This document shows, piece after piece, positions 46,551 to 48,555 of a stretch of 48,952 nt of DNA. The stretch's first letter is position 1, and every line of letters begins with the position of its first letter. The DNA comes from a virus: positions 1 through 48,952 of the IMG/VR virus record IMGVR_UViG_3300025151_000058. One strand, given 5' to 3'. Both the position numbers and the translations under genes were made by a program. A model generated the notes under the pieces. The model was given only the letters and a program-made list of their open reading frames with translations. It was not told the DNA's origin and ran no database searches.

Positions 46551-48011
46551 TTAGTAATACGCGTGGACACGTTGACCGGTTTCGGTGTCTTCCCAGTCGT
46601 CCGACGGCAACTGAATAAAGTTGCCCTGACGGTAACGCATCAACGCCTGTGTCATGCTATCAACCAAGTCATCATATTCGCCGTTAGGAAAAGCTGCAAC
46701 TTCTTCTATCATCTCGTCCGCGAACAACTCGTCGGGGGCCCACACCATTCCGGCCTCAAAAAGCGGCGACACGGAATGCACCCGCGTTACCTTGTCCGAT
46801 CCTTTCGACGGCGTGTAGTTGACAACAGGAATACCGATCTGACGTAGCTCGTGTGTCAGCGGCATACCGCTCGCCTTCGCCTCGACAATTACCGTATCCG
46901 GTTCCCAGTAGTTGTACTGGTCGTACGCCTGCTCCTTCAGTTCAGGAAAATCCCACCGACCCTTCTTACTGTCCAACAGGATAAGGTTCGGGGGGCCCCC
47001 TTCCTCCGGATAAAAAACACCCCACGTCGTTATCGCAGAGTAGTCCGCCGTCTCGCGTTTACTGAACGCCGTGTCATAACTCTGGATGACGTACTGCAAC
47101 TGGGGCACCACGTCTTTCTCCCACCGCTTCCACCACTCACGCGGAATAATCGCATTCTCTTCGCCCGTCGGGTTTTGCTGATACTGGGCATTCCACTTCG
47201 ACGGCGGGATAGATGCGCGGACCGCGGTCAGATCCTCAAGCGACCAGTACTGAGGCCAGCACGGTTCGCCGTTCTCGAATATCGCAGGTAGCTCCACAAC
47301 CTCCCACTGGTCAGCCAACGGATCTTTAGCCATGGACCGAAGTAACTGCCCGGTCATGTCCTTCTCCGACCACCGGGTCTGGACCAGCACAATCGACCCG
47401 CCCGGCTGGAGCCTCTGTCGGGGGCCCCCGGTGTACCACTCCCACGCATCGTCAAAACCACTGTTCGACATCGCCGTCTGTTCCGAGTGCGGGTCGTCAA
47501 TGACCACGAGATCGCCGCCACGTCCGGCCAAGTTCGATCCAACACCAACGGCGTAGTACATGCCGCCACGGTTCGTGTCCCAGCGACCCGACGCTTTACT
47601 GTCCGCAGCCAACGCGACCTCGGGAAAAACCTCCTTGTACTCGTCCGTCTCAATAAGGTTCTTGACCTTACGACCGAAGTTCACGGCAAGCTCTGTCGTA
47701 TGCGTCGCTTGAATGATCTTCATCCGCGGATCACGTCCCATCATCCACGCAGGGAACAAATAACTTGCGAACTCAGACTTCGTGTGACGCGGGGCCATGT
47801 TAATTATTAAACGCTTCAACTCGCCCGTTGCTACACGCTCAAACTTCTCTGCAATAATCTTGTGATGTCGCCCCGCAATGAAGTCGGGCCACATTGCTCG
47901 GACAAAAGTCAAAAAATCATTTTGACATTTTTCGTGCTTCTCAAGCTGCGCTAAACGCAGTTCAAGCTTCAGTCTTTTTGCTTCTGCTTCGGGCGTCATT
48001 TGGTTAGGCAT
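46551..48011 (-). CDS. terL: Large terminase subunit
   Basis: 486 residues. ATPase domain with APRHTKS (73-79, Walker A-like), LVVIDDPHS (Walker B plus catalytic acid) and VLVQTRWSEKD (coupling motif). RNase-H-like nuclease domain with SYDTAFSKRETADYSAITTWGV, VIVEAKASG and a final acidic motif near DDLVDSMTQALMRY. It drives DNA into the prohead and cuts the genome. Its 5' leader carries a promoter and a perfect parS-like site. No small subunit is recognised near it. Confidence 0.95.
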   Translation of the reverse strand: MPNQMTPEAEAKRLKLELRLAQLEKHEKCQNDFLTFVRAMWPDFIAGRHHKIIAEKFERVATGELKRLIINMAPRHTKSEFASYLFPAWMMGRDPRMKIIQATHTTELAVNFGRKVKNLIETDEYKEVFPEVALAADSKASGRWDTNRGGMYYAVGVGSNLAGRGGDLVVIDDPHSEQTAMSNSGFDDAWEWYTGGPRQRLQPGGSIVLVQTRWSEKDMTGQLLRSMAKDPLADQWEVVELPAIFENGEPCWPQYWSLEDLTAVRASIPPSKWNAQYQQNPTGEENAIIPREWWKRWEKDVVPQLQYVIQSYDTAFSKRETADYSAITTWGVFYPEEGGPPNLILLDSKKGRWDFPELKEQAYDQYNYWEPDTVIVEAKASGMPLTHELRQIGIPVVNYTPSKGSDKVTRVHSVSPLFEAGMVWAPDELFADEMIEEVAAFPNGEYDDLVDSMTQALMRYRQGNFIQLPSDDWEDTETGQRVHAYY

Positions 48012-48030
48012 CTTACGGGGCCCCTAGAGA

Positions 48031-48046
48031 TGTTTCACGTGAAACA
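48031..48046. promoter_or_regulatory. Perfect parS (ParB-binding) 16-mer
   Basis: TGTTTCACGTGAAACA is a perfect palindrome identical to the bacterial chromosomal parS consensus bound by ParB/Spo0J. An exact 16-mer would be expected about 1e-5 times by chance in a sequence of this length at equal base frequencies. It lies 19 bases before the terL start codon and just after the predicted -10 box (48075-48080). No parA or parB gene is present in the window, so host ParB would be the binder. Confidence 0.85.
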
Positions 48047-48074
48047 TATGGGATGGTTCTTATCCAATCAAGTC

Positions 48075-48103
48075 ATATCAAAATATCACATATCGTATGT
48101 CAA
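48075..48103 (-). promoter_or_regulatory. terL/late promoter
   Basis: Perfect TTGACA (48098-48103), 17 bases, TGATAT (48075-48080, three of six matches) on the minus strand. The surroundings are AT-rich, in contrast to the GC-rich DNA to the right. Predicted start near 48068, leaving a leader of about 57 bases containing parS. Confidence 0.6.
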
Positions 48104-48502
48104 AAACATGGTCTTACACCCGTGTCCCCCGGCGGCGCGGGCCGCGCTGGACGGGCGGCGGGCCGGGTGCCGAGACCGGCGGCGGATGACCCGATGCCAG
48201 CGGGCCCCGGCGCTTTTTCCGGCGTCCTATCTCGCATGTGCGAACGCGCTGGACCCTGCGGAAATATGGGATTTATCGCTGCCCAGGTCGCGGCGCTGCA
48301 CAACGGCCCGCGTTCGGCGGTGCAATATGCGGGAAATCCCGTCGCCGCTGGCCGGGGCGGCGGGCGTCGCCAGCGGGCCGGGTGCCGGGTGCCGGGTGCC
48401 GGGATCCGCGGCGGCGGGATCGCGGCCCACGGTCCGCGCTGGGCGCTTCCCGGTACGTTTCAGGCAGGGCGCGGGCGGCGGGCCGGGGCAAGCTTAACGC
48501 AC
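48104..48502. other. GC-rich stretch without convincing genes
   Basis: About 400 bases of very high GC with short repeats (for example GGGCGGCGGGCCGGG near both 48151 and 48471). Long open frames exist on both strands, but they overlap each other without ribosome sites and look like a by-product of base composition. No tRNA or clear RNA structure was recognised. Confidence 0.6.
48377..48404. repeat. Four tandem 7-base units
   Basis: Three consecutive GCCGGGT units, then a fourth ending GCCGGGA, within the GC-rich stretch. Short, slippage-prone. No coding context. Confidence 0.85.
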
Positions 48503-48531
48503 AAAAAAACCCCGGGGCGTTACCCCCGGGG
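48503..48531 (-). terminator. Intrinsic terminator of the right-edge operon
   Basis: Two CCCCGGGG arms (48510-48517 and 48524-48531) around a six-base loop, followed on the minus strand by seven T (48503-48509). It lies 25 bases after the stop of the 31-residue membrane peptide and isolates those genes from terL. Confidence 0.85.
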
Positions 48532-48555
48532 CGTCGTGTGCGGCGCTGGGCCGCT

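Follow-up and report, generated by a model that had tools for sequence, protein, structure and literature searches.

An orphan chromosomal-type parS site near terL in an aquatic podovirus and its relatives, probably read by host ParB

The parS Site and Its Setting

The window, by which we mean the whole stretch of DNA analyzed here, is a linear IMG/VR record of 48,952 bp with an overall GC content of 53%. Near-complete relatives measure about 54-62 kb, and because the genomes of the named phages related by TerL are 57.6-61.5 kb long, some 10 kb may be missing from the record. The features considered in this paper lie around the terminase large subunit gene:

46551..48011, minus strand: terL, terminase large subunit, 486 aa (PHROG_38, E=5e-110, PHROGs)
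48017..48025, minus strand: leader motif AGGGGCCCC, between parS and terL and adjoining the terL start codon (motif conservation)
48031..48046, no strand: parS-type 16-bp palindrome TGTTTCACGTGAAACA (exact match and invariance in relatives)
48100..48500, no strand: GC-rich block (GC 0.64-0.86), apparently non-coding, upstream of the parS/terL leader (composition)
48509..48532, minus strand: terminator-like hairpin upstream of the terL leader and reading towards terL, 9-bp stem and T run (consensus match only)

The initial annotation had described a perfect chromosomal-type parS at 48031-48046, and the scan of the full window bore this out. The palindrome TGTTTCACGTGAAACA agrees with the 16-bp consensus of bacterial chromosomal-type parS, TGTTNCACGTGNAACA, and is present as a single exact copy; no further copy was found in the window even when up to three mismatches were allowed. 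From the base composition, about 9e-6 exact copies are expected in a window of this kind. The 18-bp form of the palindrome, ATGTTTCACGTGAAACAT, spans 48030-48047. The site is located within the terL leader, about 20 bp upstream of the terL start codon.

Of 80 relatives (L121-L200), 76 have the motif AGGG[GT]CCC ahead of terL, 10-15 nt before the ATG, with or without parS; this palindrome-like motif is probably a conserved leader element or ribosome-binding element. A GC-rich block similar to that of the window lies upstream of terL in the nearest relatives, and the one in the window contains a 7-bp tandem repeat (GCCGGGT x3.9, 48377-48403). The window TerL is 54-62% identical to its homologs in the closest named phages, HTVC027P, HTVC023P, DSL-LC04 and 023Pt_psg01, reaching 62% with 023Pt_psg01 and the Pelagibacter phage HTVC027P. 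Several 2OG-Fe(II) oxygenase-like genes were seen in the early region, at 345-1460 in the window and at 4579-10089 of L209 in the relative G003.

Absence of Partition Genes

Phage and plasmid ParABS partition systems encode their own ParB together with a ParA-type ATPase; neither was found in the window phage. Domain searches for ParB_N, HTH_ParB, a ParA-type ATPase and a tyrosine integrase were empty in the window, as they were in the near-complete relatives G003 (58.1 kb), G004 (54.1 kb), G006 (58.5 kb), G009 (55.8 kb), G032 (61.5 kb) and G034 (55.4 kb) and in the GenBank genomes of HTVC027P, HTVC023P, DSL-LC04 and 023Pt_psg01. The ATPase family AAA_31 gave no match in 12 genomes. In control searches, ParB_N was detected in 11 of 14 well-known genomes. 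The earlier remark that neither par genes nor an integrase accompany the site therefore extends from the window to its near-complete relatives, and the empty searches of those relatives rule out that a ParABS system of the phage is hidden in the missing ~10 kb. Among the IMG/VR records with the exact 16-mer, only 5 of 99 have a ParB_N match, most of them long contigs; about 95% have none, although short fragments make up many of the 99, and absence from any single record is weak evidence.

Conservation Among Close Relatives

A TerL search yielded 80 loci, of which 46 contain the exact 16-mer and one more a form with one mismatch, whereas none of 60 composition-matched control palindromes occurred in the same 80 terL loci. 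Scanning relatives for the 16-mer at terL had been set beforehand as the test that could refute the site, and the 16-mer was present throughout the supported clade to which the window belongs (12 of 12 rows). When each dissimilar flank was represented once (n=17), all 16 positions were invariant and the flanking columns were near zero bits. Among close relatives, parS and terL lie between about 20 and 130 bp apart, and most genomes of the window clade have one site. In L177 and L179 there is a further copy, TGTTCCACGTGGAACA, which is altered on both sides at positions 5 and 12; these are the degenerate positions of bacterial parS. On the evidence of such comparisons, the site is under selection as DNA.

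A chance match or contamination has next to no probability, given the expectation of 9e-6, the recovery of the site in 46 of 80 relatives from many metagenomes, the zero count for control palindromes and the codon-level conservation described below.

Retention is not universal. G010 (58.6 kb, with repeats at its ends) has no parS site, and several related subclades have none within two mismatches; some subclades have lost the site, and it is dispensable in some hosts. The GC content of terL in clade L121-L200 is higher in parS carriers (0.48-0.55) than in most non-carriers (0.37-0.54), a difference that could reflect different hosts. GC content was dropped as a host proxy, however, because the trend is reversed in the L055 clade.

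The Palindrome Inside a Gene in the L055 Clade

The L055 clade, whose TerL is about 51% identical to that of the window, contains the site within one mismatch in 47 of 80 loci (controls 0). In most cases the gene that follows terL contains it, about 450-550 bp beyond the end of terL; the palindrome is in frame there and encodes V[SP]R[EG]T, part of a variable linker. A few members have it, in the form ATGTTCCACGTGAAACA, across the terL start codon, where it is read as MFHVKQ.

The embedded copies allow selection on DNA to be separated from selection on protein. The codons of V[SP]R[EG]T are GTT [TC]CA CGT G[AG]A ACA in 51/51 peptides, apart from one serine written TCC, whereas the conserved peptide [EQ]RVKG[FL]LG, about ten codons upstream, is written with 17 codon strings. 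This codon identity rules out protein-level conservation of the embedded VSRET peptide as the cause. The site forms in the clade are 35 exact, 20 TGTTCCACGTGAAACA, 4 TGTTCCACGTGGAACA, 1 TGTTTCACGTGGAACA and 1 other; the recurrent changes, T to C at position 5 and A to G at position 12, are non-synonymous, and silent changes are almost absent. Substitutions thus fall mainly at positions 5 and 12, as in the degenerate consensus of bacterial parS. Because the parS codons are fixed while the recurrent changes are non-silent, selection acts on the DNA palindrome, and the tolerance is that expected for ParB recognition. In these HTVC023P-related aquatic podoviruses, the site seems to be kept so strictly that codon choice is overridden.

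HTVC027P, Other Named Relatives and Host Clues

Pelagiphages of the HTVC023P type resemble the window phage in having no integrase or par genes and genomes of about 58-62 kb, but only HTVC027P among the four named phages has a site. In this phage, whose host is Pelagibacter HTCC1062, the sequence is CGTTTCACGTGAAACA, with one outer mismatch, and lies between genes some 4 kb upstream of terL. No site within two mismatches was found in HTVC023P, DSL-LC04 or 023Pt_psg01. Among 17 relatives of the HTVC027P clade with enough upstream DNA, five have CGTTTCACGTGAAACA and three a more decayed form; the site lies 3.5-5 kb upstream of terL, and GC is 0.33-0.39. In this low-GC clade the site looks ancestral but weakly kept. 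The genome paper on HTVC023P-type phages (PMC9599517) and the transcriptome paper on HTVC027P (PMC12753301) do not mention parS.

Clues to the host of the window phage are few. No tRNAs were found in it that could serve for this purpose, and nothing in the data on this phage points to a spore-forming host. One phage contig of the window type, L222 (JAURFH010000165.1), has the same site and was assigned to a Verrucomicrobiota MAG in which another contig contains TGTTCCACGTGAAACA. The assignment may be an error of binning or may hint weakly at the host; a Verrucomicrobiota host was set aside, since the case is a single phage contig and probably a binning accident. CtrA-based lytic deferment, the system whose CtrA sites are described in PMC9437464, was likewise discarded, as the window has only one TTAA-N7-TTAA, the number that chance predicts.

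Site Relocation and the Role of terL

Across the clades the site has four placements, and its position shifts while its sequence stays, for which reason a relocatable element fits better than a fixed operator. A fixed terL operator is weakened by the relocation in other clades. The same comparison spoke against the idea, raised in the initial annotation, that the site shields the packaging end: in near-complete relatives it is away from the genome ends (at 46.1 of 58.5 kb in G006 and 22.9 of 55.8 kb in G009), and in other clades it is embedded in a gene or separated from terL by about 4 kb.

A related proposal is that site-bound ParB serves the late (terL) operon as a switch or roadblock, coupling late transcription to host ParB or to the CTP state. 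In keeping with this, terL opens the structural block and the window clade has the site 20-130 bp upstream of it, and it was reported that phages of Alphaproteobacteria and phi29 use the host regulators CtrA and Spo0A to defer lysis (PMC9437464). However, the site is inside the following gene in the L055 clade and about 4 kb off in the intergenic gap of HTVC027P, relatives lacking parS retain the same terL leader motif, and a consensus scan found no strong promoter. We consider such a switch quite unlikely.

Occurrence in Other Phages

The 16-mer is widespread beyond the window family. At least 119 IMG/VR stretches contain it, vs. 1 for a palindrome of the same composition, and among the matches listed a TerL homolog lies near the site in 33 of these stretches. 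A second lineage (L017, L044, L053, and L075), with TerL about 27% identical to that of the window, has 2-5 exact copies around terL, with 3-5 near terL in L017, L044 and L053. The nearest named phages to this lineage are Roseobacter CRP-901 and CRP-902 (TerL ~40%); CRP-901 has no parS within one mismatch.

In the GenBank phage collection, blastn found the exact 16-mer in 315 records (control palindrome 0), a figure that includes near-duplicates and short Listeria assemblies, maybe with host DNA, and is not a lineage count. Carriers include Ruegeria DSS3P8 (3 sites), Lactobacillus Lpa804 (3), Gordonia Kampe (2), Bacillus vB_BcoS-136 (4), the phi29-like B103, Arthrobacter GreenHearts, Listeria P100plus and Spiroplasma phage 4. 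The inovirus L239 (PQ006097.1, 6183 bp) has six exact sites, roughly one per kb. Among 12 sampled GenBank carriers only Microbacterium KaiHaiDragon has ParB_N above the cut-off; in this phage (L235) the parS lies inside a gene annotated as a DNA-binding protein, and the ParB_N protein is encoded about 7 kb away. A search of 28 Gb of E. coli, an organism without chromosomal ParABS, gave no copy of the 18-mer.

This breadth bears on the question of which protein reads the palindrome. It could be read by an unrecognized phage-encoded DNA-binding protein, with the match to parS being convergence, and the early region does hold many genes with no assigned function. On the other hand, the identity extends over all 16 bases, with tolerance at the known degenerate positions; unrelated phages with no such protein in common, among them podoviruses, Herelleviridae, phi29-like phages, microviruses and inoviruses, carry the identical 16-mer; and neither ParB_N nor HTH_ParB was found. 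A phage-encoded reader is thus very unlikely.

The copy number in some of these phages suggests another use. If the sites serve as a decoy, the many phage copies of parS would draw ParB (and ParA/SMC) away from the host origin, so that chromosome segregation and division are blocked and the cell is turned over to phage production. Dozens of phage copies with one site each would far outnumber the few chromosomal sites, and some phages are multi-site, with 3-5 in L017, L044 and L053, four in vB_BcoS-136 and six in the 6.2-kb inovirus. Yet the window clade has mostly a single site per genome, where a titration trap should favor clusters, and the effect would come only late, after replication. A decoy function is somewhat unlikely.

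Comparison with Known Systems

The window site is identical to the 16-bp palindrome of bacterial chromosomal parS in ParABS systems, and the common phage variants TGTTCCACGTGAAACA and TGTTCCACGTGGAACA alter only positions 5 and 12. It differs from bacterial sites in that it lies on a phage genome with no parA or parB alongside, usually in one copy, and near terL rather than oriC. Phage-plasmids, such as P1, N15 and extrachromosomal mycobacteriophage prophages (PMC7157519), also carry a parS-type centromere on phage DNA, but they encode their own ParA and ParB and plasmid prophage functions, none of which was found in the window phage.

The closest parallel is phi29, to our knowledge the only studied virulent example. 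Four one-mismatch parS sites were found in phi29, and one exact and one one-mismatch site in B103, which has no ParB_N match. Like these phages, the window phage and its relatives carry host-type parS but no par genes. According to PMC9437464, which cites Meijer 2005, the phi29 genome is trapped in spores through the host Spo0J (ParB). Phi29 and its relatives (B103, Goe1) resemble the window phage in being virulent and carrying host-type parS, and for phi29 the same paper implicates host ParB. The hosts of phi29-type phages form spores, and phi29 also uses Spo0A, whereas the window family consists of aquatic podoviruses with one site near terL and no implied sporulation. Use of host ParB by a virulent phage is therefore already known from phi29; what is new here is an aquatic lineage without implied sporulation, together with evidence for selection on the palindrome even over codons and for a wide spread of orphan parS in phages. 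No paper on orphan parS in phages of non-sporulating hosts was found in a literature search whose coverage left out bioRxiv and most subscription journals.

Proposed Role of the Site

We propose, with a probability of roughly 0.75, that the 16-mer is a working centromere-type parS, kept without par genes of its own and read by host ParB. Judged from the sequence comparisons, the binding of host ParB to the phage site is very probable in itself, while the purpose, positioning or segregation, is speculative and somewhat short of an even chance. Host ParB, the CTP-dependent clamp of bacterial ParABS, would recognize parS on the phage DNA, close on it and spread from the site. Incoming or replicating phage genomes would then be tied to the host origin and the segregation machinery and placed in the nucleoid or the replication zone, and if lysis is slow or deferred, they would be passed to both daughter cells. 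Positioning or segregation is favored as the purpose because the site moves between clades with its sequence fixed, because one copy suffices in most genomes of the window family, and because of the precedent of phi29.

A different consequence of ParB loading would be the recruitment of SMC/condensin, which could compact or resolve replicating concatemers or mark the DNA as self against SMC-like or nuclease defenses. ParB-parS is the loading platform of SMC-ScpAB in many bacteria (PMC10197239), a point in favor of this role, which we rate as unlikely.

Significance

If ParB loads on these genomes as proposed, the host segregation machinery could position, pass on or compact the genomes of phages that lack lysogeny genes, or such phages could sabotage segregation. 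That orphan parS sites recruit host ParB as a common, repeatedly evolved strategy of tailed, microviral and filamentous phages across ParABS-bearing hosts has about an even chance of being true. The question can be addressed now in model hosts, because the 315 GenBank records include laboratory phages: parS-bearing phages of Bacillus, Gordonia, Microbacterium, Arthrobacter, Lactobacillus and Ruegeria make it testable where ParB and parS are well studied. The sites suggest a general phage-host interface, the bacterial centromere protein.
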